A stretch of DNA of 53,751 nt, from the NCBI GenBank assembly GCA_021732415.1, contig JAKFVC010000194.1, positions 1-53,751 on the forward strand. Reading direction: 5' to 3'. A program made the translations under genes and the position numbers. The DNA comes from Planctomycetaceae bacterium (GTDB taxonomy: Bacteria > Planctomycetota > Planctomycetia > Planctomycetales > Planctomycetaceae). A model generated the notes under the pieces. It ran no database searches, was not told the DNA's origin, and saw only the letters and a program-made list of their open reading frames with translations. Every line of letters begins with the position of its first letter. Positions within the stretch are counted from its first letter, which is position 1. Shown one piece after another: positions 5,396 through 53,751 of the stretch.

Positions 5396-6471
5396 ACAGG
5401 CTTTTCGAATCAGTCCAACTCGGGTCGCTGACCCTACCAAATCGCGTCTTAATGGCACCGACGACGCGAAACCGCGCCAATCCAGATGGCGTGCATAGCG
5501 AACTTGCGGCGACATACTACTCGCAGCGTGCATCAGCAGGTCTCATCATCACAGAGGCGACTCAAATCTCCCCAATGGGAAAGGGGTACGTGAATACGCC
5601 GGGCATTCATTCGCCTCAGCAGGTCCGCGCATGGCGAAACATTGTCGATGCCGTGCATGGGCAAAACGGACGAATCTTCCTACAGTTGTGGCATGTCGGC
5701 CGAATCTCTCATTCTTCCTTGCTGCCAAACAACGCGCAGCCTGTTGCTCCATCTGCAATCCGAGCCAATAGCCAGACGTTCATTGCCACAGGTCGGGCAG
5801 AGGTTTCGGAGCCTGTCGCGTTGACGTTGTCGGGTATCAAGGAGACATTATCTGATTTCCGAGTAGCCGCCCGTAATGCTAAGGAAGCCGGATTCGATGG
5901 GGTTGAGATTCATGCGGCAAACGGTTACCTGATCGACCAATTTCTTCAGTCAGGAACCAATCAGCGAACCGACGAATATGGCGGATCAGTAGAAAACAGA
6001 ATCAGGTTTTTGTCGGAAGTCGCGCAGGCTGTTTGCGAGGTCTGGACGCCCTCGAGCATCGGTGTGCGGTTATCCCCGCGAGGAACCTTCAATGATATGA
6101 GCGACAAGGCCCCCGAGAGCACCTTCATGGCGGCAGTCGCGGCAATGTCGGCCCTGGGTCTGGGATACCTGCACGTCGTGGAAGCGTCGCCCGGCGACGT
6201 CCCGCCATCGCCGGAATTCGCTTCCCTGTTCGCCCGGTTGCGACACAACTGGCACGGCGTTTACGTGGCTAATGGCGGTTTCGACGGACCTTCCGGCGAA
6301 GAAGCTGTGCGCAGCGGCCGGGCCGACGCTATCGCTTATGGGCGCCATTTTATCGCCAATCCCGATCTGCCAAGGCGGTTGCAACTCGGAGCCCCTCTGA
6401 ATGAACCGGACCCAACGACTTTCTACGGAGGAGGCGCTGCCGGTTACACAAGCTATCCTGTGCTCTCCTGA
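5392..6471 (+). CDS. Old Yellow Enzyme-family alkene reductase
   Basis: A 359-residue FMN-dependent NAD(P)H oxidoreductase of the OYE/NemA family. Seen are the N-terminal MAPTTRNRA strand, QLWHVGR, the substrate-binding His/Asn pair in EIHAANGYLIDQF, the TDEYGGSVENR motif and a C-terminal phosphate-binding region (VANGGF, then GRHFIANPDLPRRL). The length is normal. It reduces activated C=C bonds, quinones or nitro compounds, and related genes are often controlled by TetR-type repressors that sense electrophiles. The start overlaps the preceding stop by 4 bp and follows AGGAGA. It ends the operon; a leftward DUF3817 remnant begins 11 bp later. Assignment is firm at family level. Confidence 0.95.
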   Translation: MNRLFESVQLGSLTLPNRVLMAPTTRNRANPDGVHSELAATYYSQRASAGLIITEATQISPMGKGYVNTPGIHSPQQVRAWRNIVDAVHGQNGRIFLQLWHVGRISHSSLLPNNAQPVAPSAIRANSQTFIATGRAEVSEPVALTLSGIKETLSDFRVAARNAKEAGFDGVEIHAANGYLIDQFLQSGTNQRTDEYGGSVENRIRFLSEVAQAVCEVWTPSSIGVRLSPRGTFNDMSDKAPESTFMAAVAAMSALGLGYLHVVEASPGDVPPSPEFASLFARLRHNWHGVYVANGGFDGPSGEEAVRSGRADAIAYGRHFIANPDLPRRLQLGAPLNEPDPTTFYGGGAAGYTSYPVLS

Positions 6472-6482
6472 AACGCGTAGCA

Positions 6483-6629
6483 TCAGGATCTGCAGATGCG
6501 ATCGTTTGGGACTGCGCCTAGCGTTATCCCGGCGACGTACTTCAGCGGCATCGCCACGAGGAGTAGCAACAGGAAAGAGAGTCCCTCGATAGCCAGCACG
6601 ATTCGAAGATCAGTGATTGAAATTCGCAT
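6483..6629 (-). pseudogene. DUF3817-family membrane protein, N-terminal fragment
   Basis: A 48-codon frame reading MRISITDLRIVLAIEGLSF, continuing with a leucine run and AMPLKYVAG. This matches the first transmembrane helix of DUF3817 proteins (LR-hydrophobic-IEG-SF ... MPLKY). Members are normally about 90-110 residues with further helices, which are missing here. The frame ends after about 10 unrelated residues against the OYE gene. I read it as a gene truncated by arrival of the OYE operon. It could still be expressed as a single-helix peptide, but that is not supported. The family call is from recognition of the motif. Confidence 0.5.
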
Positions 6630-6681
6630 AGCAGTGAGTTCGTTTCTTCAGATCCAGTAGCTGTTGGGATGACTTCATCTC

Positions 6682-7407
6682 CTATCTCAAGCGGCGTTTG
6701 TGAGCCTTTGCAATTTCGACTGCTGCCGGGGTCATTTCGCCCATGATGCCCTTGGGGCCGGAGATCATGTCAACGATCTCCTTTCTCGCCGTGCGTGGAT
6801 GACCGGCGTTGAACGGAGGTTGAGGATCGTACTCCAATGCCAGTTGCGTGAATTCAGCGGCATCCTGGCCCTTGATTGCGGAAATGACCGTGAGTCCAAA
6901 GTCGATGCCAGCGGTGACGCCACCGCCTGTGATGCGATTCCGATCGACACAGACTCGCTCGTGGCTTGCCTCAATGCCGAGGGCTTCCAATGGTTCATAG
7001 AATGCCCAATGCGTGGCAGCGCGATAGCCGTTCAGTAGGCCAGCCATTCCGAGGATCACTGAGCCAGTACAGACCGAAGTGATGTAACGGGCTGTCAAAC
7101 CAGCTCGTGCTAAGAACTCCAGAATCTCCTGGTCTTGCATGACAGCGTTCGTTCCGAAGCCGCCCGGTACGAACAGCAAGTCCAGATTATCGGGAACGTC
7201 GGCGAACGTGATCGTGTGGTTCATCGATACGGCCATGTCAGTCGGGACCGGCTCCATGTTTTTCCAGATGAGATGTGTCTTTCCGTGCAGGCCCAATGCC
7301 GTTTGTGGGCCTGCTAAGTCCAGCAGAGTGAAGCCGGGATAGAGCAGCATTCCGATCTGGAGCGGCGAGGTTCCTGTGTCCCATCGGGCGGTATTCTCAT
7401 CAGACAT
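6682..7407 (-). CDS. DJ-1/PfpI-family protein (cytosolic)
   Basis: A 241-residue class I glutamine amidotransferase-like protein. The nucleophile elbow is TSVCTGSVILG with the conserved cysteine at Cys113, followed by AGLLNGYRAATHW, and the PGGFGTN loop precedes it. The family covers isonitrile hydratases, glyoxalases, proteases and chaperones; the SVCTGS/ATHW pattern is closest to isonitrile-hydratase-like proteins. GGAAA precedes the ATG. There is no signal peptide, so it acts in the cytoplasm. The next gene in the same direction is a Tat-exported paralogue, and a divergent GlxA-like regulator lies beyond that, so this is a three-member DJ-1 cluster. The reaction is not determined. Confidence 0.9.
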   Translation of the reverse strand: MSDENTARWDTGTSPLQIGMLLYPGFTLLDLAGPQTALGLHGKTHLIWKNMEPVPTDMAVSMNHTITFADVPDNLDLLFVPGGFGTNAVMQDQEILEFLARAGLTARYITSVCTGSVILGMAGLLNGYRAATHWAFYEPLEALGIEASHERVCVDRNRITGGGVTAGIDFGLTVISAIKGQDAAEFTQLALEYDPQPPFNAGHPRTARKEIVDMISGPKGIMGEMTPAAVEIAKAHKRRLR

Positions 7408-7542
7408 GTTTATTTCCTTTGTGTTCGAGTTGTTGGTTGATCACACACTTGCCGAACGACTCAAAGGGTTCGGCTGTGTCTTGATGTGACGATTGGCCAC
7501 TCCCCTTTGTTCTGAATCGGAGTGACCCAAGCTGGACGGGCA

Positions 7543-8370
7543 TCACGGCTTTGGGGCGTATCGATTCATCTCCGCAGCGGCAGCAGCGCAGGCCGGGACC
7601 ATCTTCGCCATGACTGGTGCCATCCAATCCAACGCCATTTTCGTGATCTTTTCGCCTGCCTTCTTTGGCGATCCTGCGTCAAACGGGGGCGCGGGATCGT
7701 ATTCCATTCCCAGCTGACTCAATTTCGCGATGTCTTCGCTGAGCATGCTGGCGAGCAACGTCAATCCGAAGTCGATTCCGGCAGTCACACCACCACCGGT
7801 GACCCGATTGCGGTCAGTTACGACCCTCGCCGCCACGGGCGTTGCGCCAAACATCGCCAGTGCCTCGTGAGCAGCCCAGTGACTGGTCGCCTTGTACCCT
7901 TTGAGCAGACCCGCCGCCCCAAGAATCAGTGAACCCGTACAAACGGAGGTCACCCACTTTGCTCTTGAACCACGGTCGGCCATGAACCGCAGTACTTCTG
8001 CATCTTTCATAACCTCAAGTTGGCCTGGCCCACCTCCCACGAAGATCGCGTCAAGCTCCTTTGGGCAGTCAGCAAGCGACATAGAAGGCTGTAGGACAAC
8101 GCCAGTATCAGACTTCAAAAGTCTGGAGTTCTTCCATACCAAGTGGACATTGCAAGCAGGTGCCAGTGCCGTATGCGGACCTAGCATGTCCATGATCGTA
8201 AGTCCTGGATAGATGAGCATGGCGATTTCAGGCCGGCGTCCCGTGTGCATAACAGGCAACTGGTCCTCACTCACTTGCACGACCGCCTTCTCGTCCGCTG
8301 CGATCCCCGTTCCGGCGATCCCCGCGACTGCTGTTCCTGCCACCAATCCACCAAAGTCACGTCGATTCAT
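7543..8370 (-). CDS. DJ-1/PfpI-family protein with Tat-type signal
   Basis: A 275-residue paralogue of the neighbouring DJ-1 protein. I start it at 8370 because AAGGAG lies just upstream; an in-frame Met at 8400 has no ribosome site. The N-terminus MNRRDFGGLVAGTAVAGIAG is a twin-arginine type signal with cleavage near GIAADE, so the folded protein is probably exported. The catalytic motif TSVCTGSLILGAAGLLKG carries Cys144, with THWAAHEAL and RVTGGGVTAGIDFGL downstream. It lies in the same direction as the cytosolic paralogue with a 135-bp gap, and it is divergent from the GlxA-type regulator. Having both exported and cytosolic copies suggests the same chemistry in two compartments; that is inference. 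Confidence 0.88.
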   Translation of the reverse strand: MNRRDFGGLVAGTAVAGIAGTGIAADEKAVVQVSEDQLPVMHTGRRPEIAMLIYPGLTIMDMLGPHTALAPACNVHLVWKNSRLLKSDTGVVLQPSMSLADCPKELDAIFVGGGPGQLEVMKDAEVLRFMADRGSRAKWVTSVCTGSLILGAAGLLKGYKATSHWAAHEALAMFGATPVAARVVTDRNRVTGGGVTAGIDFGLTLLASMLSEDIAKLSQLGMEYDPAPPFDAGSPKKAGEKITKMALDWMAPVMAKMVPACAAAAAEMNRYAPKP

Positions 8371-8572
8371 CTCGAACTCCTTGTTGTCTAAAGATTGCAC
8401 ACACAGATCTTGATCGTTGACCAGAGAATCGACTTTGCCTTGACGCAGTCAGCGTTTCGGGCGTGAGTCTCATCACCAGCTAAATCTTATTGACTTCGCG
8501 AATGGCGTAAATGACAATGTTCCGACAGTTACGGCCATTCTGGATTGAGGTGACGCCCATGAGGAATCGACG

Positions 8573-9571
8573 ATGAAACGCGAAAGTAGCCGTAAGGCAA
8601 ATGAGACGAGGCGTATTGTGTTTCTGGCTTTCCCCCAAGTCGTCCTGCTCGATCTAATCGGCCCTTGGGATGTACTCAATCTCGCAAACACGCTGGCGAA
8701 CGATGAAACGCCGCCCTATGAACTGGAACTGGTCAGCGGCGACGATTCCGCAGCGATTCTCTCTTTCGGAGGCATTTCGATGGCGAGCCAACAATCGGCA
8801 TCCAAATGCCGAGGTGCCATCGACACGCTGATGGTTCCAGCCGCTGGCATGAGTTGGCAATCGCCACCGTCGGCACACTCATTGACTGTGTTGCGTCGAT
8901 TGGCAGGACGTTCTCGCCGCATCGTATCGATCTGTGGTGGGGCGATGCTCCTCGCGGCAGCCGGATTACTCGACGGAAAGAAAGCGACGACCCATTGGCG
9001 CGGAACCGACGAACTCGCCGCGCGTTTCCCCAACGTCAATGTCCAGCCCGATTCGATTTTCGTGAAAGATGGAAACGTCTATACTTCAGCCGGGGTCACA
9101 GCGGGGATTGACCTGGCATTAGCTCTGGTGGAGGAAGACTTGGGGCGAGCGATGGCCCTCAACTGTGCTCGCTACCTTGTTGTCTTTATGCGCCGTCCCG
9201 GTGGCCAATCCCAGTTCAGCGCCACGTTGGAGTCTCAACAGGCAGAGCGGAACTCGATCAACGAACTCATCGCGTGGGTCACTGACAACCTCGCCAGCAA
9301 TCTCTCGGTGGAAACGATGGCCGACAGAGTCCACATGAGCCTCCGCAACTTCTCCCGTGTTTTCCGTAGCGAGACCGGACAGACCCCCGCAGCCCTCGTC
9401 GAAAAACTGCGAGTCGATGCCGCCCGCCGCCGCCTTGAGGAAACCGACGAACCACTCGAAACAATCGCCACCGCCTGCGGCTTCGGCAGCGCGGACTCGA
9501 TGCGACGTTCATTCCACCGAATCGTGAAGGTCGCTCCTAACGACTACCGGAAACGATTCTGCATAGACTGA
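8573..9571 (+). CDS. GlxA-family AraC-type transcriptional regulator
   Basis: A 332-residue two-domain regulator. Residues about 12-195 form a DJ-1/PfpI-like sensor domain with a cysteine elbow in SICGGAMLLAAAGLL and ATTHW. Residues about 225-325 form an AraC double helix-turn-helix (SVETMADRVHMSLRNFSRVF, then ATACGFGSADSMRRSFHR). This is the GlxA/FtrA arrangement. It faces the Tat-exported DJ-1 gene across about 200 bp, so it most likely regulates the two DJ-1 genes. GAGGAA precedes the ATG. No clear operator stood out in the intergenic region 8371-8572. The family call is sure; the targets are inferred from divergent placement. Confidence 0.92.
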   Translation: MKRESSRKANETRRIVFLAFPQVVLLDLIGPWDVLNLANTLANDETPPYELELVSGDDSAAILSFGGISMASQQSASKCRGAIDTLMVPAAGMSWQSPPSAHSLTVLRRLAGRSRRIVSICGGAMLLAAAGLLDGKKATTHWRGTDELAARFPNVNVQPDSIFVKDGNVYTSAGVTAGIDLALALVEEDLGRAMALNCARYLVVFMRRPGGQSQFSATLESQQAERNSINELIAWVTDNLASNLSVETMADRVHMSLRNFSRVFRSETGQTPAALVEKLRVDAARRRLEETDEPLETIATACGFGSADSMRRSFHRIVKVAPNDYRKRFCID

Positions 9572-44297: not shown

Positions 44298-44832
44298 ACA
44301 GGGGCGATCTGACGACCATGTGCCAATGCCCAAAATCGACTCTCTGACATGATCGCCGACAATTGCCGCTCCACCTGACGTTGGCAGCACCGAAATATTT
44401 GGCACGGTGTCGAGTTGCCATTCAAATGTTTCGACTGAAGGCAATCCAGCTGGACCGATGCCCAAAGGGCTAGGTTTACGGTTTGTCGTTCGAACACGAG
44501 AGTCTGGTAGCGCAAGACTACGGTCTGTGCGGTCCCGGTCCCAAACCAAAGCTGATCCGAAAGCCCGGCTTCCAGCCGCAAGCCCCGGTGGTTGCAGCTT
44601 ATCTTGATATTCAGACGCAAAAACGGGTACAGTAGTTTGCACAGATGGATCGGTGCCGAAATTCGGTGCCGATGGTATTTTTGCAATCACCGGAGTTTTT
44701 GATCGCATGGTGGCCGGAAAGCGGCCTCGCTGACAATTTGATTGACGCGTGAGCGTCAAGAACTGTTTTCCTTTAACCCGCCAACCTGAGCCGCAAGGCT
44801 CTTGTAGTTTTACAGAAACAGCAACTTGAGCC

Positions 44833-44852
44833 ACGCCCCCGCAAGGGGGCGT
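44833..44852. repeat. GC-rich hairpin at the RIT left end
   Basis: Arms ACGCCCCC and GGGGGCGT with a GCAA loop. It lies between the outer arm and the 32-bp palindrome. A looser ACCCC/GGGGT hairpin lies at a similar place outside the right end (about 48392-48409). Confidence 0.6.
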
Positions 44853-44881
44853 CGGTTATGGAAAGCTTTCCATAACCGACG
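44850..44881. repeat. 32-bp perfect palindrome at the RIT left end
   Basis: Both halves read GGTTATGGAAAGCTTTCCATAACC at the centre, extended by CGTC and GACG at the edges. Its right half leads straight into the inner inverted repeat (CCGACGTTATG). The right end of the element lacks this palindrome. Confidence 0.8.
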
Positions 44882-44908
44882 TTATGCGCACTTCGCGATT
44901 ATGCGTAG
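44876..44908 (+). repeat. RIT left inner terminal inverted repeat
   Basis: Begins CCGACGTTATGCGCACTT and ends GATTATGCGTAG. It matches the complement of 48341-48373 at all but a few positions (C/T changes and a 3-base difference). Confidence 0.8.
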
Positions 44909-45018
44909 TTGGACGAGGGCTAAGATGGGGATCCCTTTCTTTTCGCGGGTTTCGTCGGTGAATCGCTGCACATAATAATGACGCGTTCTTTTGCCCTCGG
45001 GGCCGAAAGGAGAGCGTC

Positions 45019-46257
45019 ATGTCAAAGCGGCATCGTAAGCGTGTTTGTCAGCACGCCTGTGCCAGATCTATTTGTTCCCTCCTGGAACAGTATTCGGAGT
45101 ATCTGAGTTCCCAGGGATATTCTGCTCAACGACACCGTCGCTATGTTCGGGTCGTTGAGCATTTTGGCCGGTGGATAGGACGCTGGCACGTTAGCCGGTC
45201 TCTCGTTCAGGAATTCCTCGACCAAGGACTGTCGGATTGTCAATGTCCGGGAGTCAGTCGCGATCGGCGTTTGAATCGCGCCGCATTGAATCACTTGCTG
45301 GCGATGCTGGGACTGGATCAGGAGCCGCCAGTTGATTCACAGGGTTGCTTGGGCGAGCTATTACGCGACTACGAAGAGCACCTTACCAACACCAGAGGAC
45401 TTGGACGGGATACTGTTCTCCGTCACTTGAAGTACACCCGGGACATGCTCCGTCGTTTCGGTATCCGGCGAGAGTCTCAGTTCAAGCATTGGACGGCCGA
45501 AGCGATCGAAGAGGATGTCGCACGGGAAGGACGCTGCGCTCCAGGACGAGGGCGTAATGTTGGATGGTGTGCTCGATCGTTTCTGCGGTTTCTCCAGCAG
45601 GTGGGCCTGATCGAACGAGACCTCGCCGCCGCCGTTCCGACCGTCGCGCGTTGGCGACTAGCGTCGCTGCCGACGACGTTGAGCGAAACAGAAATTGAAC
45701 GTTTGATTGGGGCGGCGGACCTGACGACAGCATTTGGTCGACGCAACTACGCCATCGTTCTGTGCCTGAGCGAATTGGGACTGCGCGGAGCGGATGTGGC
45801 CAAGCTGCAAATCGACGACGTCGATTTCACCGCCGGTGTGTTACGGCTGAGCCAGCGTAAGGAGCGACATGCGGACGTTTTTCCGTTGACGCCACGGTTG
45901 CGTTCGGCGTTGCAAGCCTATCTTCGGGGAAACCGTCCCGCTGGCACATCTTCGGCCGTTTTCGTTCGGCACCGTGCTCCGCTGGGCAAGCCGCTCACTT
46001 CCATCGGCATCTGCAATGTGGTTTTGCGTCTGGCGGATCAAGCCGGATTGCGTCACCGCGTAAATGGCCCTCATACGCTGCGGCGCAGTCTGGCCAGTCG
46101 GATGGTCAACGCCGGTGCCACTCTGAAACAGATCGCCGATTTTCTGGGGCACGCGTCAATCGACACCACAACGCTCTATGCCAAAGTCGATCTCACCACG
46201 CTTTCCCAAGTGGCGTTGCCTTGGCCCGCGAAAGAGAGAAAGACGGTGCGACCATGA
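45019..46257 (+). CDS. RIT tyrosine recombinase A
   Basis: A 412-residue tyrosine recombinase, the first of the trio, preceded by AAGGAGAG. Two core-binding segments occupy about residues 15-230. The catalytic domain has the first Arg in LGLRGADVAKL, HTLRRS (H-x-x-R), LGHASIDTTTLY with the second His and the nucleophile Tyr, and the hairpin Lys in RLSQRKERH. All catalytic residues are present, so it is probably active. Its stop overlaps the start of recombinase B by 4 bp. It would act with B and C on the element's inverted repeats. The family is sure; the division of labour among the three is not known. Confidence 0.92.
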   Translation: MSKRHRKRVCQHACARSICSLLEQYSEYLSSQGYSAQRHRRYVRVVEHFGRWIGRWHVSRSLVQEFLDQGLSDCQCPGVSRDRRLNRAALNHLLAMLGLDQEPPVDSQGCLGELLRDYEEHLTNTRGLGRDTVLRHLKYTRDMLRRFGIRRESQFKHWTAEAIEEDVAREGRCAPGRGRNVGWCARSFLRFLQQVGLIERDLAAAVPTVARWRLASLPTTLSETEIERLIGAADLTTAFGRRNYAIVLCLSELGLRGADVAKLQIDDVDFTAGVLRLSQRKERHADVFPLTPRLRSALQAYLRGNRPAGTSSAVFVRHRAPLGKPLTSIGICNVVLRLADQAGLRHRVNGPHTLRRSLASRMVNAGATLKQIADFLGHASIDTTTLYAKVDLTTLSQVALPWPAKERKTVRP

Positions 46258-47207
46258 AACGCAAGACGATGGTACGCCGGGTGAAGGATTATCTGCAGCT
46301 GCGGCGGGCACTTGGTTTTCAAATGCGAACTCAGGGAGACATGCTTCTGCAATTTGGGAGGTATCTCGATGGTGCGGGATATCGCGGTCCACTAACGACG
46401 GAAGCGGCGCTGCGCTGGGCCAATCGTCCTCACTTATCACGAGGCTCGCGCGCGAAGCGGCTGTCGGCGGTGCGCTGTTTCGCACGGTATCTGGCAGCGC
46501 GAGACGGCCAGACTGAGGTGCCGGAGCGGTATCTGGTACCGAAGGTCTGCTTTCGCCAGCGGCCACATCTCTACAGTCCACGCGAGCTGGAACAGTTGCT
46601 AGTTGCGACCGACCGGCTACGGCCTTCGTATCCATTGAAGAGGCTGGTTTGCCGCACGCTGTTCGGGTTGCTGGCATGCACTGGCTTGCGAGTTTCCGAA
46701 GCTCTGAAACTCAAGGCGGAGCACGTCGATCTGCAGCGTGGCGTCCTGCGAATTGAACAAACGAAGTTCAAAAAGTCACGGTTGGTACCACTGCATCCGA
46801 CGGCCGCGCACGCCCTACGACGTTACGCGCAGGCACGCTATGGCCGCTTGGACGTGCGTGACAAAAGCCCCTTTTTTGTCGACAAGAAGGGAACTCGTCT
46901 TACCTATGGCGCAGTCCGCCGGAGCTTTGACAAGTTGCGTGAAATGTTGGGTTGGACACAGTCCAACGGCGACCGGCCTCGTCCCCGCATTCATCATTTG
47001 CGACACACGTTCGCCTGCCAGCGGCTCCTGTCCTGGTATCGCCAAGGCCAGGATGTCCATCATCTGATCGCCGCGCTCTCGACTTACCTCGGACACGGCA
47101 AGGTCACAGACACTTATTGGTATCTGACCAGCACGCCGGAACTGCTGGCCATAGCGGGTAGCCGCTTTGAACAGTTCGCAGACACCAGGAAAGGAGAGCA
47201 TAAATGA
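46254..47207 (+). CDS. RIT tyrosine recombinase B
   Basis: A 317-residue tyrosine recombinase. I start it at the ATG overlapping the stop of recombinase A (46254); a longer in-frame start at 46221 lies inside gene A. The catalytic domain shows CTGLRVSEAL (first Arg), EQTKFKKSRLVPL (hairpin Lys), HHLRHTFACQ (H-x-x-R), LGHGKVTDTYWYL (His and Tyr). The length is typical for the middle gene of RIT elements. Its last codons overlap the start of recombinase C by 4 bp, so all three are translationally coupled and presumably made in fixed ratio. No frameshift is seen. Confidence 0.92.
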   Translation: MKRKTMVRRVKDYLQLRRALGFQMRTQGDMLLQFGRYLDGAGYRGPLTTEAALRWANRPHLSRGSRAKRLSAVRCFARYLAARDGQTEVPERYLVPKVCFRQRPHLYSPRELEQLLVATDRLRPSYPLKRLVCRTLFGLLACTGLRVSEALKLKAEHVDLQRGVLRIEQTKFKKSRLVPLHPTAAHALRRYAQARYGRLDVRDKSPFFVDKKGTRLTYGAVRRSFDKLREMLGWTQSNGDRPRPRIHHLRHTFACQRLLSWYRQGQDVHHLIAALSTYLGHGKVTDTYWYLTSTPELLAIAGSRFEQFADTRKGEHK

Positions 47208-48283
47208 AGACGACTACGTCCCGCAGGTCAAAGGTGACCAAGTCCCCAAAGTCGAAAGCAAACAGGTCAGGAACAAGTGAGTCGCTCGCACTGAAGATTT
47301 CCCTCGGCTCGATCCTGCAGCGTTATTTCTGCGAGTATTTAGTCAGCCAGCGCGACCTGAGTCAAAACACGATTGCCAGTTACCGCGACACTTTCCGGCT
47401 TCTGTTGGAGTTTTTGAAACTCCGGTACCGCATCCAGCCCGATCGAGTCTGCGTCGAGGATCTGGACGCGCCACATGCGCTCGCGTTTCTGGATGATCTG
47501 GAGCGACGACGCGGCAACACCGTCCGCTCGCGTAATGCCCGCCGGGCGGCGCTCCGCTGCTTCCTTCGTTATGCCGCAGCGTCCGAGCCGCAACTGCTGC
47601 CGGTGGCACAGCGCGTATTGGCCATTCCCGCGAAACGATTTGAGCGAGCTTCGGTCAGCTACCTGACGCGGGAGCAGATGCAGGCTATTCTCGACTCGCC
47701 CGATGTCACCACTTTTTCCGGACGACGCGACCGAGTGCTTCTTCTACTGTTGTACAACACCGGCGCGCGGGCATCGGAGATCGCAGGCCTGCAGATTCAA
47801 GATGTCTCTTTGGAGTCGCGAGGCTCTGTGTGCATTCGCGGAAAAGGCCGCAAGAATCGATCGATGCCGCTCTGGCAGAAGACAGTCAGGTTGTTGCGTT
47901 CCTGGCTGAAGGAACTTGATAGCGCGCCGGATTCGCCCTTACTGCCCAACATCCACGGCCAACGGCTGACTCGTTACGGGATTGCCCAGCGTTTGCAGTA
48001 CACGGTGCAACGTGCCGTCTCCGAGGAACCGTCACTTCAGTCGCTGCGAATCTCCCCTCACCTGATTCGTCACACGACGGCGATGCACCTGCTTCAATCA
48101 GGTGTGGACCTTTCGGTGATTGCCATGTGGCTTGGCCATGAGTCGACTCAAACGACCCATCAATACCTGGACGCAGACCTCGAATCCAAAAAGCGGGCAC
48201 TGGCGTGTCTGGAGCCACCATGCGTCGGTAAATCATCTCGCCCCCGAGATGATGACATCGTGCACTTCCTCAAAGGTCTGTGA
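47204..48283 (+). CDS. RIT tyrosine recombinase C
   Basis: A 359-residue tyrosine recombinase. GGAGAG precedes the ATG at 47204, which overlaps the stop of B. A basic Lys/Ser-rich start (residues 1-25) is followed by a core-binding domain (SQRDLSQNTIASYRDTFRLL) and a catalytic domain with YNTGARASEIAGL (first Arg), GKGRKNRSMPL (Lys), SPHLIRHTTA (H-x-x-R), LGHESTQTTHQYL (His and Tyr). All catalytic residues are intact. It closes the trio; the right inverted repeat begins about 57 bp after its stop. Confidence 0.93.
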   Translation: MKTTTSRRSKVTKSPKSKANRSGTSESLALKISLGSILQRYFCEYLVSQRDLSQNTIASYRDTFRLLLEFLKLRYRIQPDRVCVEDLDAPHALAFLDDLERRRGNTVRSRNARRAALRCFLRYAAASEPQLLPVAQRVLAIPAKRFERASVSYLTREQMQAILDSPDVTTFSGRRDRVLLLLLYNTGARASEIAGLQIQDVSLESRGSVCIRGKGRKNRSMPLWQKTVRLLRSWLKELDSAPDSPLLPNIHGQRLTRYGIAQRLQYTVQRAVSEEPSLQSLRISPHLIRHTTAMHLLQSGVDLSVIAMWLGHESTQTTHQYLDADLESKKRALACLEPPCVGKSSRPRDDDIVHFLKGL

Positions 48284-48340
48284 TTATGCGCACTATAAAG
48301 GAGACCAACCCATGACAAACAAGCGGTTTGAAGCAACGGG

Positions 48341-48373
48341 CTGCACATAATCCTCAAATGCACATAACGTCGG
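48341..48373 (-). repeat. RIT right inner terminal inverted repeat
   Basis: On the minus strand this reads CCGACGTTATGTGCATTT and ends GATTATGTGCAG, the mirror of the left repeat at 44876-44908. The complement of the outer arm GTTTACAGAACAGCA follows at 48380-48394. Confidence 0.8.
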
Positions 48374-48394
48374 CCATTGTGCTGTTCTGTAAAC

Positions 48395-48656
48395 CCCTTG
48401 GCGGGGGTAAAGGGAGCGGTCGTGGTTCGACGCCTCTTTATTTTCGGGATAGCATGTATTTCAATCTCTCTTCAGTACCGCCTTCGTTGAGCCCATTGGG
48501 GCTCCGAACCGGCATTGTGCCAACCAAAGTTCTTCAACGCTGGCCACAGTCACAGTCGAGCGCTTCTTTCCGCGCACACCGTCGATCGACGATTGGGGCC
48601 TGTCAGCGTTTCGATCTTCCAGACACGTTCGCCATCACCCCCGTCGAGAAATCATT
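48395..48656. promoter_or_regulatory. Leader region of the GTPase operon
   Basis: About 260 bp between the RIT right end and the first GTPase start. It presumably holds the operon promoter, but I cannot fix a -10/-35 pair. No gene is visible. It is the junction at which the RIT element meets the operon. Confidence 0.35.
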
Positions 48657-50561
48657 ATGTCGCAATTGCGTTCCTCGACCGAAGTGCTCGTGCCTCCCTG
48701 GATCACCTCACTTCGCGAGCATTTGGCGCAGCACGGCGAGCCTGCCGTGGTCGCCGAGATTGACCAGTCCGTTGACCAGTTTCGCAGTGCCCAGCTCACG
48801 ATTGCGCTGTTGGGAAAGGTGAAACGCGGCAAATCGACTCTGCTCAATGCGTTGCTGGGCCGCAGAGATGATGTCGTCGCGCCGATCGATCGCCTGCCCG
48901 CGTCGTGCGCCATCACGCAGTTCCGTTGGAGCGAACAGGAAGCGGTGCAAGTGATTTATCGGGACGGGCATCAGGAAGCGATTTCCTTCAGCCGAATTCG
49001 CGAGTTCGTCACCGAAGAATCTAATCGCGACAATCACAAACAAGTCGATGTGGTGCACGTATCTGGCCCCTTTACGGGAATCAATAGGGCCACGGTGTTG
49101 GTCGATACCCCCGGCGCGGGATCGATTCATGAGCACCACGATGCGCTCCTGCATGCGTTTATTCCACAGGCTGACGTCGTGTTGTTTCTCGTCACGTCCC
49201 GTATGCCACTGGATCAGGACGAATTGGAACTGCTGGCACGTATTAAAACCGCCGACATACCGAAGGTCTTCTTCGTCATCAATCGCATCGACGAAGCCGA
49301 GGAGCAAGATCTCCAGGATGCGATTCAGCACAACCAGGCACTTCTGGCACGGCATGGAATCGCGCCTGGGGTGATCCATCGGATTAGTGCGAAGCAGTCT
49401 TTTCAGGGAAATGCCGCAGACAGCGGTGTTCCCGAGCTGCTGGCAGCCGTGGGGACATTTCTGGCGGCCCAGCGCGGACCAACGCTGCAAAGTCGGTTGG
49501 TGACCCGCGTCCGTCAAGCCGTCGAAGTACTCATCCCGCGCTGGGAATTGGATTTCCAGAGTGCTACCAAGAGTGCCGGAGAACTGAATGCCGAACTGCG
49601 GCGACTAGAAACGCGACAGGCGACTCTGGCGCAGGAACGCGAATTCGCCAGCCGCGAATTCTTGCTCGCCTGGAAGCGCGCGGCCGATGAGTTCGACTTT
49701 GCCCTGCAAGGATCGCGGGCGCCACTCCAGTCAGGGTTACGTACACGAATCGAATGTCGTGAGTCCCCAGGAGCAGGAAGTCTATCCCAAGGACTGCCTG
49801 CCCTGCTCAATGAATTGGTGGCTGAGCGACTGACTCCGCTCACCTCGGAATTCGAGACCAAGTTACGGCAGGCGACAGACCGACTCCAGGCCACTTATCC
49901 ACAGTTCCACATGTCCGTCGAAGGGCACGCCCTCATCGCGCCCCGGACAAATGCGACCGCCCTTATGGCAACTTCGGCTGGCGGAATCGCGATCGCGAGC
50001 ACGGGGATGGGTTTGGCTGCTGCCGGAAGTGCCGTCGCGAGCTCCATTGCCGCAGCCAATGCCGCGGCGCTCGCGGCAACAACAACGGTTGCCGTTCCCA
50101 CGGCATTGGGCGGTTTACTGGGCTCGGTTCCGTATCTGGGAAGCGTGCTGACCCAATTAGCGACGGGAACTGCAGCCTTATCGACCCCGGCCGCACTGAC
50201 TGCGACTCCCTTGTGGGTCGCTCTCTCAGGACCAATCGGCTGGACGATGGCCGGGATCGGGGTGTTGGCGATTCCGATCGCCTGGCGCTCGTCTCAGTTG
50301 AAAGCCAAACAGCAGATCGAAGCGGCGTGCCTGCAGCAACTGGATCAGATATTGGACCAATTGCGGACAGAACGGCTACCGGCCATTCGGGAGATGGCCT
50401 CCTCGATCGTGGACGAATTTCAGCAAAACCTCGATCGGCAGTTGGGCGCAATCCAGCGGACATTGCAACAGCATCGCGATCGTCCGTCCAAGCCGGACGA
50501 AATCGTTGGGCTGCAATCCCGGCTTGAGCGACTACGGCAGCTTTGGAACTCCGCCACGTAA
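48657..50561 (+). CDS. Dynamin-like GTPase with hydrophobic C-terminal region
   Basis: A 634-residue GTPase. The P-loop is GKVKRGKST (about residues 53-61), G3 is DTPGAGS (150-156) and G4 is NRID (209-212), inside a TRAFAC/dynamin-like domain of about 290 residues. A helical, coiled-coil-like stretch (about 300-430, Arg/Glu/Leu-rich) follows, then a long Ala/Gly/Thr-rich hydrophobic zone (about 440-545) that could insert in membranes, and a final helix rich in Leu and Gln. The layout resembles bacterial dynamin-like proteins. It is the first gene of a four-gene same-strand run and lies just right of the RIT element. A role in membrane remodelling or conflict is inferred. Confidence 0.85.
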   Translation: MSQLRSSTEVLVPPWITSLREHLAQHGEPAVVAEIDQSVDQFRSAQLTIALLGKVKRGKSTLLNALLGRRDDVVAPIDRLPASCAITQFRWSEQEAVQVIYRDGHQEAISFSRIREFVTEESNRDNHKQVDVVHVSGPFTGINRATVLVDTPGAGSIHEHHDALLHAFIPQADVVLFLVTSRMPLDQDELELLARIKTADIPKVFFVINRIDEAEEQDLQDAIQHNQALLARHGIAPGVIHRISAKQSFQGNAADSGVPELLAAVGTFLAAQRGPTLQSRLVTRVRQAVEVLIPRWELDFQSATKSAGELNAELRRLETRQATLAQEREFASREFLLAWKRAADEFDFALQGSRAPLQSGLRTRIECRESPGAGSLSQGLPALLNELVAERLTPLTSEFETKLRQATDRLQATYPQFHMSVEGHALIAPRTNATALMATSAGGIAIASTGMGLAAAGSAVASSIAAANAAALAATTTVAVPTALGGLLGSVPYLGSVLTQLATGTAALSTPAALTATPLWVALSGPIGWTMAGIGVLAIPIAWRSSQLKAKQQIEAACLQQLDQILDQLRTERLPAIREMASSIVDEFQQNLDRQLGAIQRTLQQHRDRPSKPDEIVGLQSRLERLRQLWNSAT

Positions 50562-50609
50562 GACGAAGTCGCTATTGGAAATGTCCCCGCGTGACCACGG
50601 AACTTGAAG

Positions 50610-51704
50610 ATGATTTCGCAAACTACCGAATCGATGTCGAGGCTCGGAATACTCGTCGAGGAATTCCTGATGTTGATTTCCGAATCCATCGAGTATCACC
50701 CGGACTCCGACATCCAAGCCGTACTGCAAGAGACTTTTCAAATTGCCAAGACGATTCATCGTCGGATCGCCGTCTCGCGGCAGCGATTTGTCATGGCCAT
50801 CGTCGGTCAGGCAAACGTGGGGAAATCGACGCTCCTCGCCGCATTGCTGGGAGAGGAGATTTCCCCGCGCCGGAATGGCCCCTGTACCGCCACTTCCATC
50901 GAATATTCCTGGGGACCGACGTATCGCATTGAGGCGCGCTATCGGGGGACGTTGCGGCGAGACGTCAGCCACTGCGGCAGTTCCGCGGAGACCTTGCAGC
51001 AACTCACTGCCTTGGCCGATGAATCCAGTGCCGGGGCGGGGAAGCGAGCGGAGCGGATTCTGGTCCAGCTCCCGCTGGAACTCCTGCATGACGGTTTGGT
51101 AGTTGCTGATACTCCCGGATTTGGTGCCGCACACAGTGACGTGGAACGCGATGGCACGCATGACGAGAGCGTCCGAAGTTATCTTCATAGTGAAGTGTCA
51201 CAAGTCCTCTGGGTCGTGCTGGGGGATCAAGCCATCAGTAAGCGCGAGCACCGATTCTACGAGCAGTTTCTGAACGCAATTTGCGACGATGTGGTCGTGA
51301 CCGGTTGCGAAGACTGGACAGCGTCCGATCGGCAGCGCTTTCAGCAGCGAATGGCGGCTCCCCTCCACCTGCAGACGGCCGAATTCCACTTTGTGTCGGG
51401 ACTACAGGGACTACAAGCCCGCAAGAGTCAAGATTCTGGACGCTTAAACGCCGCTGGAATTCCGCAGTTAGAAACCCGGGTTCGTCTCCTGGCCGACCCG
51501 GTCCAACGCTACGCAGCGCTGGAGAGTCGACTGGCCATTTTGGCCAATGCGTTGGGGGCTTGGATGACAGATTTTCGGAGATCGAAAACGGCGAGGAGAA
51601 CGCAGAGTCCGTGGCGACCCGATAGCTGGCTGCGGTGGCTGGAATTGCCTGCCACACCGTTCAAGCGACAACTCGACCAAGCGTTACAACAGGGGGCCAC
51701 ATGA
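50610..51704 (+). CDS. Small GTPase (second GTPase of the operon)
   Basis: A 364-residue GTPase. I start it at the ATG at 50610 with GGAA 7-8 bases upstream; a TTG at 50604 and Met at 50634 are alternatives. P-loop GQANVGKS (about 66-73), Thr-rich switch region after SPRRNGPCTATSIEY, G3 DTPGFG (about 167-172). The G4 position reads VTGCEDW instead of N/TKxD, so guanine specificity is uncertain. A helical C-terminus ends in a basic stretch. The next gene overlaps its stop by 4 bp. It follows the dynamin-like gene by 48 bp and probably works with it, as paired bacterial dynamin-like GTPases do. Function unknown. Confidence 0.82.
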   Translation: MISQTTESMSRLGILVEEFLMLISESIEYHPDSDIQAVLQETFQIAKTIHRRIAVSRQRFVMAIVGQANVGKSTLLAALLGEEISPRRNGPCTATSIEYSWGPTYRIEARYRGTLRRDVSHCGSSAETLQQLTALADESSAGAGKRAERILVQLPLELLHDGLVVADTPGFGAAHSDVERDGTHDESVRSYLHSEVSQVLWVVLGDQAISKREHRFYEQFLNAICDDVVVTGCEDWTASDRQRFQQRMAAPLHLQTAEFHFVSGLQGLQARKSQDSGRLNAAGIPQLETRVRLLADPVQRYAALESRLAILANALGAWMTDFRRSKTARRTQSPWRPDSWLRWLELPATPFKRQLDQALQQGAT

Positions 51705-52915
51705 TATCCGTTGCGGTTGTCGGAATTGAGGGAAGTGGCAAGACCGTTTTGGCGACGATGTTGGCCAAGCGCTACTGCGAACGACGCGCGGGCGCGCCGT
51801 TTTTTGAAGCGATGTCAATCAACACGGTCAGGCTCGTCGAGAAGTGCTGGGGCACACTTCAAAACCGCGAATGGCCTCCATCTACTCCCATCGGAGAAAT
51901 GTCCGCACTTCACTGGCGCGTGCATTTTTCTGATTCACAAGTTTGCGATTTAAAGATGATTGATGCCGCAGGCCAAGACCTGCGCCAGCTGTTCGGTGAG
52001 CAGCGTATCAACGATTTCGATGCTCTGCCGCAGCATCTTAAGAATCTGGCAGACTGCATTTGCAATGCCAATATTGTGCTGTTGTTGGTCAATTTGGGTG
52101 ATATCTGCGGAGTGCCCGATTCCTTGCGCCGGCAAGAGAATGAATTCGCGGCCAAGTTTATCATCGAGTATCTGCAAGCGAAACGCACTGCAAACCCTCC
52201 TAGAATTTGCCTCGTGTTAACTCAGCGCGACCTGCATCGAGGGATCTTTCGCCAATTCACTGACGAACGGCAACTTGTGCGACATCATTTGCCGTCATTG
52301 TTCACCGCCCATTTTGCTTCAGGTGAAGTCGGCGTGCTTTCCGTTTCTGCCGTCGCAAATACTGACATCGAGCTTGGAGAAGGGCAGCGGATACGTCGGG
52401 TTCCCGCCGTTCCGGTTCAAAGTCAGGGTTTGTCCAAATTAATTTCTTGGCTGCAAGAGGCCGTAAATCGACAACCACCGGCAGCCCAAGTGCAAACTGA
52501 GATCCCAGTTCAAGACACGTTCTGGACCCGCATGCGCAGCCATGTAGGCACTTACCTCGCGATGTCAGTCTGTATTGGAGTCTTCACTTATGCAAAAGCT
52601 AAGCCTCCAAAGCCAGCGTGGCCTCGACTCCCACCTGTGACTCGACCGGTACCGCAATTTGTGACGCAACACTCTATCGGCCGCTCTGGGGTACTTGATG
52701 ATTCGGTGACCTCTTATGGAACGGTGCAAAACAAAGGTGCGGCAGGGAAGATCCGTGTGATTTCGCAAGTCGTCGAAGACGGCGTGGTCAAGGATCGAAA
52801 GTTTCAGGATCTGATCTTGAATCCTATGGAAGTCGGTCGCTTTGAGATCGAACTTCCCGGCATTGAGAATCTGAAACACAAGTTTGAAGTGACGAATGAG
52901 GCTGTGGTCCCGTAA
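51701..52915 (+). CDS. P-loop NTPase with membrane anchor and FxLYD-like domain
   Basis: A 404-residue protein starting at the ATG at 51701, which overlaps the preceding stop and follows AGGGGG; a longer in-frame start at 51635 lies within the GTPase gene. Walker A is GIEGSGKT (8-15), a DxxG-like DAAGQD is at 88-93 and TQRD (174-177) stands where a G4 motif would be, as in double-GTPase/DO-GTPase-like proteins. A single membrane helix is at about 282-298 (VGTYLAMSVCIGVFTYA). The C-terminal about 90 residues form a beta-sandwich (SYGTVQNKGAAGKIRVISQV) similar to FxLYD domains. This domain is probably outside the membrane. It links the GTPases to the envelope. The function is not known. Confidence 0.78.
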   Translation: MISVAVVGIEGSGKTVLATMLAKRYCERRAGAPFFEAMSINTVRLVEKCWGTLQNREWPPSTPIGEMSALHWRVHFSDSQVCDLKMIDAAGQDLRQLFGEQRINDFDALPQHLKNLADCICNANIVLLLVNLGDICGVPDSLRRQENEFAAKFIIEYLQAKRTANPPRICLVLTQRDLHRGIFRQFTDERQLVRHHLPSLFTAHFASGEVGVLSVSAVANTDIELGEGQRIRRVPAVPVQSQGLSKLISWLQEAVNRQPPAAQVQTEIPVQDTFWTRMRSHVGTYLAMSVCIGVFTYAKAKPPKPAWPRLPPVTRPVPQFVTQHSIGRSGVLDDSVTSYGTVQNKGAAGKIRVISQVVEDGVVKDRKFQDLILNPMEVGRFEIELPGIENLKHKFEVTNEAVVP

Positions 52916-52933: not shown

Positions 52934-53751
52934 ATGCGCATCTACTGGGCTCTGTTCGATCAGGATTATTTATCACCGGATCGGTCGTATTGGACTTGGC
53001 ACCACAACGAACTGAATGTGGTCCTGCTGGATACGTTCTACTATGCGATCGCTCATCAATACCATCCCTCGCGGTCTGATCGCGATGGTACCGACGGCGC
53101 TCCTTCCGAAATCGCTGACGTCAATCCTGACTGGAAATGTTGGTATCAATATTTGGATGGAGGACGAGATTCACAGGGGCGGCCCGGGCGTTTTGTTTTG
53201 CTCTGCGGCTTCATTAAACGGCAAGATTTCTACCAGACAGGCGGTTCTCTCCCCACCATCGCCCGTTTACCGGTGATTCAACGTATTTGTGACTCCGCGT
53301 CTCAAAGACCTGTCCCTCCTCCAGACGACTTGAGCGTCGACGTTGCTCCACAAGAGTTGCGACGCGCTTCCGATTTGAATTCGGAGACACTCTCGATCGC
53401 GAACGAATCTGCACTTCACTCCAGTGTTCTCACCGACGCTCAGCTTCTGCGGCCTGTGACACCTTCGCATTTATCGCAATTTCTGGTCCCGGACCACGTC
53501 GAAATCGCTACCGCAGGCTGTCCGTTGCCGGACGTGAAACCCCGGCCAACCAATTCGGTCAAGCTTGCCGGCGTCATCGGTTCGACTCATCGCAGATCAC
53601 CGGCGGATGTCGGGAACTTGGATGCTAGCAGCCTGTTGAAAAAGGAGGTTTTCGGTCTCCTCCTAGTGAATTGTACTGGATATCATTCCGTCGGGCGAAA
53701 TCGAATCCTGATAGGTGGGCGACACAATGGCAATGGGACGTCGGAAGAATG
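52934..53751 (+). CDS. Unrecognised fourth gene of the GTPase operon (3' end outside window)
   Basis: An open frame from the ATG at 52934 to the last base, over 270 codons without a stop. GGATGGAA (52918-52925) is a good ribosome site, and the start lies 18 bp after the previous stop. The N-terminus MRIYWALFDQDYLSP is followed by WTWHHNELNVV and a Trp/Tyr-rich stretch, then GRPGRFVLLCGFIKRQDF and a proline-rich linker near residues 135-150. There is no signal peptide or clear membrane segment. I do not recognise a family. Its position suggests a GTPase-associated partner or effector of the operon, but that is inference only. The frame and ribosome site make it a convincing gene. Confidence 0.75.
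   Translation, partial: MRIYWALFDQDYLSPDRSYWTWHHNELNVVLLDTFYYAIAHQYHPSRSDRDGTDGAPSEIADVNPDWKCWYQYLDGGRDSQGRPGRFVLLCGFIKRQDFYQTGGSLPTIARLPVIQRICDSASQRPVPPPDDLSVDVAPQELRRASDLNSETLSIANESALHSSVLTDAQLLRPVTPSHLSQFLVPDHVEIATAGCPLPDVKPRPTNSVKLAGVIGSTHRRSPADVGNLDASSLLKKEVFGLLLVNCTGYHSVGRNRILIGGRHNGNGTSEE

Follow-up and report, generated by a model that had tools for sequence, protein, structure and literature searches.

The window analyzed here, a stretch of 53,751 nucleotides from a Planctomycetaceae bacterium (GenBank assembly GCA_021732415.1, contig JAKFVC010000194.1), harbors an RIT element, an element of a known kind, that spans positions 44856-48373 (3,518 bp) and separates the two halves of a structured RNA gene. 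Its three tyrosine recombinase genes, ritA (45019-46257; 412 aa), ritB (46254-47207; 317 aa counted from the ATG) and ritC (47204-48283; 359 aa), are all located on the + strand, and successive genes are coupled by ATGA overlaps at 46254-46257 (ritA/ritB) and 47204-47207 (ritB/ritC). The three products matched Pfam (RitA, Phage_integrase, 3.4e-28; RitB, 1e-22; RitC, 1.6e-33) and also NCBIfam models, the latter in each case under the curated cut-off. Each could be aligned to solved Xer recombinases (RitC to XerD, 1a0p, 3e-24) with most of the catalytic motifs covered, the RitB alignment ending just short of the tyrosine, and the catalytic R, HxxR and H...Y motifs, read by inspection, are kept in RitA, RitB and RitC. 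RitA showed a weak SAM-like match at residues 22-69, under the Pfam cut-off, and a XerD-like match from residue 117; a RitA with two core-binding domains and a RitC with an additional C-terminal helix are described in PMC8138268. These data bear out an earlier, sequence-only reading of the locus, which had described an intact RIT element with three catalytically complete recombinases encoded by ATGA-coupled genes, since three complete genes lie between inverted repeats. The fourth gene of SE and GInt elements (srap/ginD) was not found between the ends; the rit genes fill 45019-48283, and the other open reading frames of at least 80 aa all overlap them. As a side observation, the PDB chain 9i5v_14, labelled as the ribosome-associated inhibitor RaiA, aligns over more than 200 residues with the RIT recombinases, perhaps through a slip of labelling.

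The ends of the element mirror each other, each with three copies of the motif TTATGYGCA, two in tandem at the tip and one inverted further in. The left 33-bp inverted repeat (44876-44908, + strand) contains motifs at 44882 and 44899, 17 bp apart, the second with one mismatch, and the right 33-bp inverted repeat (48341-48373, - strand) contains two TGCACATAA motifs at 48342 and 48359, also 17 bp apart, and ends in the spacer CGTCGG (48368-48373). The third, inverted motifs are TGCACATAA at 44967-44975 (- strand) on the left and TTATGCGCA at 48284-48292 (+ strand) on the right. The two repeats, 79% alike, confirm the imperfect 33-bp inverted repeats noted earlier, and they were found again in the only close relative of the element, which resides in a metagenome-assembled genome of another Planctomycetaceae genus (G034); one of the six motifs in the window and two of the six in G034, among them the inverted one at the left end, carry one mismatch. 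Beyond the left repeat, the element begins with PP', a perfect 20-bp palindrome (TTATGGAAAGCTTTCCATAA; 44856-44875) present in the same arrangement in G034. PP' is followed by the inner spacer s' CCGACG (44876-44881), the reverse complement of the outer spacer CGTCGG (44850-44855, + strand) that precedes it; the corresponding pair in G034 is CCGGCG / CGCCGG. The additional outer arms proposed earlier are a perfect 32-bp palindrome (44850-44881) at the left (ritA) end only, and the limits first given for the element, 44807-48394, were too wide, because they included flanking sequence of the RNA gene.

The split RNA gene

The sequences that flank the element are the two halves of one structured RNA of about 200 nt, a fact that had escaped the sequence-only reading. 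The 5' half (44728-44855, + strand), which corresponds approximately to positions 1-127 of the model and ends with the target spacer CGTCGG, scored 69 bits with cmsearch (E 9e-15), and the 3' half with its U-run (48374-48448, + strand) scored 26 bits (E 1.1e-4, or 0.0128 in a search of the whole genome). When the halves of the window were joined, they showed 91% identity over 199 columns to the uninterrupted copy of a genome of the same genus (G003), and flanks joined without the element had been seen in several genomes in the first search of relatives. The outer spacer is the target copy of the hexamer and forms the 3' side of the base, i.e. the lower stem, of one hairpin, directly behind which the RIT is inserted; the same hexamer is present in 62 of 80 uninterrupted RNA copies.

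A first alignment of 19 joined copies gave 47 consensus pairs, 23 of them with compensatory changes, and with a covariance model of 80 uninterrupted copies two-sided changes were observed in 43 of the 47. In that 80-copy alignment, which was fitted to the covariance model, 96.6% of the paired cells could pair versus 83.0% in shuffles, and none of 500 shuffles was as good. The RNA does not belong to a family that we could name: tRNA, tmRNA and known families were rejected with ARAGORN and Rfam, there was no Rfam match at the gathering threshold in the window and seven further loci, and the sole result of a relaxed Rfam search with one intact copy was a CRISPR-repeat match below the threshold and on the opposite strand (E 1.3). 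Neither this RNA family nor the double-core junction proposed below was found described in the literature and Rfam searched, although we cannot be certain of this. A search with the model detected no intact copy of the RNA elsewhere in the host genome.

Copies of the element and a model for its junction

The full element was found in its own genome and in G034 only, among 59 relatives' genomes searched, its own included. A RitC search of 120 genomes of the family gave nine with a match at 1e-60, of which its own and G034 were close and the others 40-44% alike, and a scan of genome contigs revealed 32 loci, one close (86%, the G034 contig) and the rest at most 42%. The G034 copy is inserted into another member of this RNA family at the identical nucleotide, in the same orientation and with PP' on the same side, but in an unrelated context with different downstream genes; the DNA similarity between both loci spans 44731-48439 and stops there, in the 13-kb stretch compared around the G034 copy. 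The rit genes of the two copies differ by dN values of 0.07-0.08 and dS values of 0.33-0.44 (dN/dS 0.16-0.25) and thus appear to be under purifying selection. The 86% copy in another genus and context, this selection, and the uninterrupted RNA copies that represent empty sites are fair evidence, at the level of sequence, that the RIT is or recently was mobile, in agreement with its supposed capability of movement. The absence of other copies and of matching ends in relatives had been named as an argument to the contrary; a second copy is indeed missing from the same genome, but matching ends are present in a relative.

We favor, without having proved it, that the window and G034 copies arose by two separate insertions. 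The RNA of the window is 91% identical to that of G003, which is empty, and 76% identical to that of G034, whereas the latter is 84% identical to the empty copy of a further genome (G173), and a tree joined the window and G003 RNAs with 100/93 support. The alternative, that the RIT entered the RNA once in the distant past and that the interrupted RNA was then inherited or moved as a unit, would account for the identity of nucleotide, orientation and PP' side in both copies, and RNA copies are found in so many contexts that the RNA may itself relocate; moreover, the approximately unbiased (AU) test did not reject a clade of the window and G034 RNAs (p 0.34). Nevertheless, a single ancient insertion would require a precise loss in G003, and the RIT copies are more alike (86% at the nucleotide level) than the RNA halves that carry them (76%), so that we regard it as unlikely. 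That the RIT has decayed or become immobile, with no present activity, might be suspected from its single copy in the genome and from the fact that RIT mobility was still undemonstrated in 2012 (PMC3414803). The three complete genes with catalytic motifs, the excess of dS over dN and the preservation of all six end motifs in G034 speak against a decayed element, which therefore seems quite improbable.

RNA genes have been seen as RIT targets twice in the phylum, here and in a planctomycete RIT (locus L207, G129:C801) that is inserted in the tRNA-Arg(ccg) gene of a five-gene tRNA array and whose joined flanks restore the tRNA. Among the proteobacterial copies, the RIT of the plasmid locus L214 lies in a gene annotated as an IS66 transposase, and L265 and L266 are flanked by sequence with the common reading GAA-ACR-GCR-AAG-CTC-AAC, probably that of an IS66 transposase as well. 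The tnpA gene of IS66 is a known RIT target in Cupriavidus (PMC2864759).

The ends were compared with those of multi-copy RITs from plasmids, where ritB matches occur at 758 places in 507 records (E<=1e-20). With the exception of L225, the plasmid loci L214-L227 (13 of 14) have their best matches to the three Rit proteins arranged in the order A-B-C, with identities of 29-39% for RitA, 41-45% for RitB and 39-51% for RitC. Eight Sinorhizobium copies share a 20-bp palindrome, located at the ritA (left) end in four of them (L223, L265, L266 and L269) and at the ritC (right) end in the other four (L263, L264, L267 and L268). L223 and L264, on plasmids of Sinorhizobium meliloti and S. medicae, have the same target flanks around the same RIT in opposite orientation, and L217 and L260, from Croceicoccus, likewise combine common target flanks with opposite orientations of the body; within both pairs PP' lies on the same side of the target. 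In the Sphingobium/Croceicoccus family PP' is imperfectly palindromic and both of its orientations occur. Two Sphingobium copies that are 99.97% identical differ in their left spacers (CCGAAA and GCGGAA) and agree in the right one (CCGTAA), as expected if the target supplies one spacer and the element the other, which is the rule reported for SEs (PMC10214605).

Inverted repeats passed a strict score in 28 of the 43 RIT loci that were scanned, and a terminal 20-bp palindrome with 9 or more of its 10 pairs is present in 13 of the 28, versus 0.2% of 560 control draws. The window itself, with repeats 79% alike, falls below that score and is outside the 28, and the repeats of L216/L261 and L262 in that set are outer or wrong ones. 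Weaker palindromes occupy the expected place in L214, L215, L217, L259, L260 and L274. In ten loci the two spacers across PP' are exact reverse complements of each other (window, G034, L207, L209, L217, L220, L259, L260, L267 and L274; those of L259 were read by eye), and in L212, L214 and L215 they are one base off; L261 (PP' at both ends), L268 (an inner spacer of 7 bases) and L224/L277 (cut at the record start) were left out of the symmetry claims. Two loci showed ends of another appearance: the Croceicoccus RIT L216/L261 (NZ_CP060053.1) has a 20-bp palindrome at both ends together with long outer inverted repeats, and the RIT ends of L218 (Paraburkholderia phymatum pBPHY02) seem to hold half a palindrome each, unlike a one-end PP'.

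The sides of PP', the orientations of the body and the spacer pattern would all be explained by a symmetric junction with two usable, inverted cores. In the proposed model, a circular (or copied-out) RIT would join its ends as R-s-PP'-s'-L, with R and L standing for the 33-bp inverted repeats, PP' for the 20-bp palindrome, and s and s' for the 6-bp spacers. Such a junction would be one large palindrome that offers two inverted, near-equivalent core sites for tyrosine recombinases, R-s-P and P'-s'-L, either of which could recombine with an arm-hexamer-arm target; because either core could be used, PP' would be left on the side set by the target while the body could take either orientation. At the locus studied here the target hexamer, CGTCGG, is the base of the conserved RNA hairpin, and the RNA is interrupted by the insertion rather than rebuilt. 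We infer the circular form, the order of strand exchange and the roles of the three recombinases. The attC cassettes of integrons have a recombination site that is folded and imperfectly palindromic, and something similar is conceivable, by analogy only, for the RIT junction.

Taken together, these results make it likely that the gene for a structured planctomycete RNA serves an intact RIT as attachment site, the RNA being split by it here, and that the junction of the RIT is built as proposed. Several observations weigh against such a view. The host genome (9.87 Mb, 98% complete) contains no second copy of the RIT; none of eight other planctomycete RIT loci, with ritC 40-44% alike, is associated with the RNA family; and just two insertions of this RIT are known, so that the target preference rests on two out of two. 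The spacers across PP' are more than one base off in seven of the eight Sinorhizobium copies, which rules out that s' is strictly the reverse complement of s in all RITs, and since s' often departs from that form, full symmetry is not obligatory. In addition, L218, L221, L222, L226 and L273 have inverted repeats but no recognizable PP', ruling out PP' as a feature of every RIT; PP' being frequent and yet missing there, the junction model covers many RITs, not all. The inner spacer of the seven Sinorhizobium copies looks like a relic of an earlier site, and the matching inner spacers of the window and G034 would fit, but do not prove, an earlier residence in the same RNA family.

Distribution and possible role of the RNA

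The RNA family was detected in 43 of 150 genomes of the host family and in 32 of 392 genomes of the phylum (stricter filters, the split copy of the window included), with up to six copies per genome, and it gave no match on plasmids, phages or viral contigs, one of these searches consisting of a single exact pattern. The nearest downstream open reading frame (at least 120 aa) is on the RNA strand in 62 of 78 cases, compared with 47 of 75 for the nearest upstream one, and a run of at least four U is present in the last 28 nt of 76 of the 80 copies. The patchy distribution, the several copies per genome, the varied contexts and the island-type gene clusters near 28 of 79 loci might suggest a repeated DNA element (a MITE or an attachment repeat) that merely folds well and gives no RNA. 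This is very improbable in view of the two-sided changes in 43 of 47 pairs, the U-run, the strand of the downstream genes, and the many G-U cells of the alignment (one pair is UG in 30 of 79 sequences), which would turn into A-C mismatches if the opposite strand were read.

In the window, the RNA precedes an operon that starts with a dynamin-like GTPase gene (48657-50561; Dynamin_N, 1.2e-22), followed by genes for a second GTPase (50604-51704; Dynamin_N, 2.8e-17), a DO-GTPase-like protein (51635-52915; DO-GTPase2, 3.7e-6, with 27.2 bits versus a cut-off of 27) and a fourth protein with no Pfam match (52934-53751), whose gene is cut by the end of the window; all four are on the + strand, and GAP1 was not seen in the part of the operon within the window. 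The right end of the RIT had been said to meet the leader of this operon; it is indeed adjacent to the sequence that precedes the operon, but this sequence begins with the 3' half of the split RNA gene. In a genome of a different genus (G137), an intact RNA (L159:3918-4116) lies about 200 bp before homologues of the four genes (L159:4319-6193, 39%; 6190-7230, 36%; 7196-8380, 28%; and 8361-9410, 32% over 100 aa) and there is no RIT. Therefore, the RNA is an old neighbor of the operon and the RIT arrived later. Empty sites, the comparison of which in relatives had been suggested earlier, are represented by the uninterrupted RNA copies and, in this one case, placed before the homologous operon. 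The first GTPase had no match at 1e-30 in the three other genomes of the genus, so that a syntenic empty site is lacking in the same genus. It is scarcely credible that the RIT is a fixed switch which turns the RNA and the operon on and off by excision and re-insertion: the element looks intact and sits in the RNA before the operon, but related three-recombinase elements, SEs and 3 of 7 GInt strains, need not regenerate the empty site (PMC10214605), the G034 copy precedes other genes, and the G137 operon does without an RIT.

The RNA is normally found upstream of genes or operons, some of them resembling conflict systems. Of the first downstream genes on the RNA strand (61 at RNA loci plus that of the window), 6 of 62 contained Pfam GYF_2, as did 13 of 100 second and third downstream genes (100 of the 141 listed were examined), and GYF_2 was outside the 25 commonest families, a list reaching down to single members, of 100 of the 138 upstream genes. 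A GYF profile, seeded from the downstream clusters and searched on both sides (551 kb downstream and 519 kb upstream), identified 30 proteins at 18 of 79 loci; every one of them is encoded downstream, and 29 are on the RNA strand. Among the planctomycete members of DO-GTPase conflict systems, GYF proteins with trypsin or membrane parts have been named (PMC7159879). Because of the downstream GYF genes, of those conflict systems and of the dynamin/DO-GTPase-like operon of the window, our working guess is that the RNA is a regulatory leader or an RNA component of GYF/GTPase operons, a function that we infer. Against a role in operons, a gene on the opposite strand comes next downstream of the RNA in 16 of 78 cases, no GYF gene is in reach at 61 of 79 loci, and island-type clusters are close to 28 of 79. 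A competing terminator stem over helix 2, as in a riboswitch and as would be expected of such a leader, was possible in 67 of 80 copies versus a shuffle mean of 60.6 and maximum of 66, and its covariation was not convincing (35 of 500 shuffles as high); since shuffles were nearly as frequent and the covariation did not convince, it is not claimed. Put together, a wider reading, in which the RNA is the leader or RNA part of GTPase/GYF conflict operons, an RIT lineage has specialized on it, the junction is a symmetric double-core palindrome and the inner spacer can record an earlier target, is possible but put forward tentatively.

Two other ideas about the RNA were discarded. Clustering of the copies by genome, as for a trans-acting and homogenized RNA, does not hold generally (21 of 50 copies have their nearest relative within their own genome), and a defense system behind the RNA was not apparent with PADLOC, since the 62 downstream genes gave 44 families, the best 25 of which match 2 of 62 members each, nothing systematic. 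Some further neighbors were recorded. In L047, L048, L055 and L061 the RNA is preceded, at a distance of 194-999 bp, by a same-strand gene for a conserved protein of 173-189 aa; this protein occurs elsewhere in two more loci, its L047 member has no Pfam match, and in L047 and L061 its gene is preceded by that of a second conserved small protein. A PD-(D/E)XK nuclease cluster is present at most 8 kb from the RNA in 11 of 79 loci (L047, L053, L055, L059, L064, L152, L160, L169, L177, L179 and L193); it is Cas4-like in L047, accompanied in three loci by a cluster of AAA+-like proteins, and resembles an unnamed planctomycete island.

Comparison with known systems

How RITs move and choose their targets has been an open question, and the 2012 survey found that their ends fit the usual core-and-arm sites poorly (PMC3414803). 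The element studied here now comes with an exact empty site, a family of targets and a junction model that can be tested. Its insertion site shows what an RIT may aim at and, at the same time, suggests a new RNA family whose structure is strongly supported, for which Rfam has no entry, which is usually placed before same-strand genes and whose function is directly testable. With the DO-GTPase (GAP1-N2) conflict systems, the loci share GTPases and planctomycete GYF proteins fused to trypsin or membrane segments, encoded behind the RNA at part of the loci; in contrast, the available part of PMC7159879 describes no structured RNA, and the operon of the window matches the DO-GTPase models weakly.

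As in Tn554-type elements (PMC3414803), several tyrosine recombinases would act together, but the RIT has inverted repeats and a palindrome, and no TnpC-like protein was seen in it. The SEs and GInts (PMC10214605, PMC5385486) resemble it in their three recombinase-type genes, a 6-bp spacer between the joined ends, target specificity, and a target spacer left at one end while a carried spacer is found at the other; unlike them, the RIT lacks the fourth gene (srap/ginD) and cargo, and has an extra 20-bp palindrome and a second spacer at one end. The RITs of proteobacteria (PMC3414803, PMC2864759) have the same overlapping A-B-C recombinase genes, a size of about 3.5 kb, no cargo, and inverted repeats of 28-34 bp with an overlapping palindrome, to which the 3,518 bp, the 33-bp repeats and the 32-bp palindrome of the present element correspond; the latter differs from them in its planctomycete host and in having a structured RNA gene as target, where theirs are IS66 tnpA or radC.

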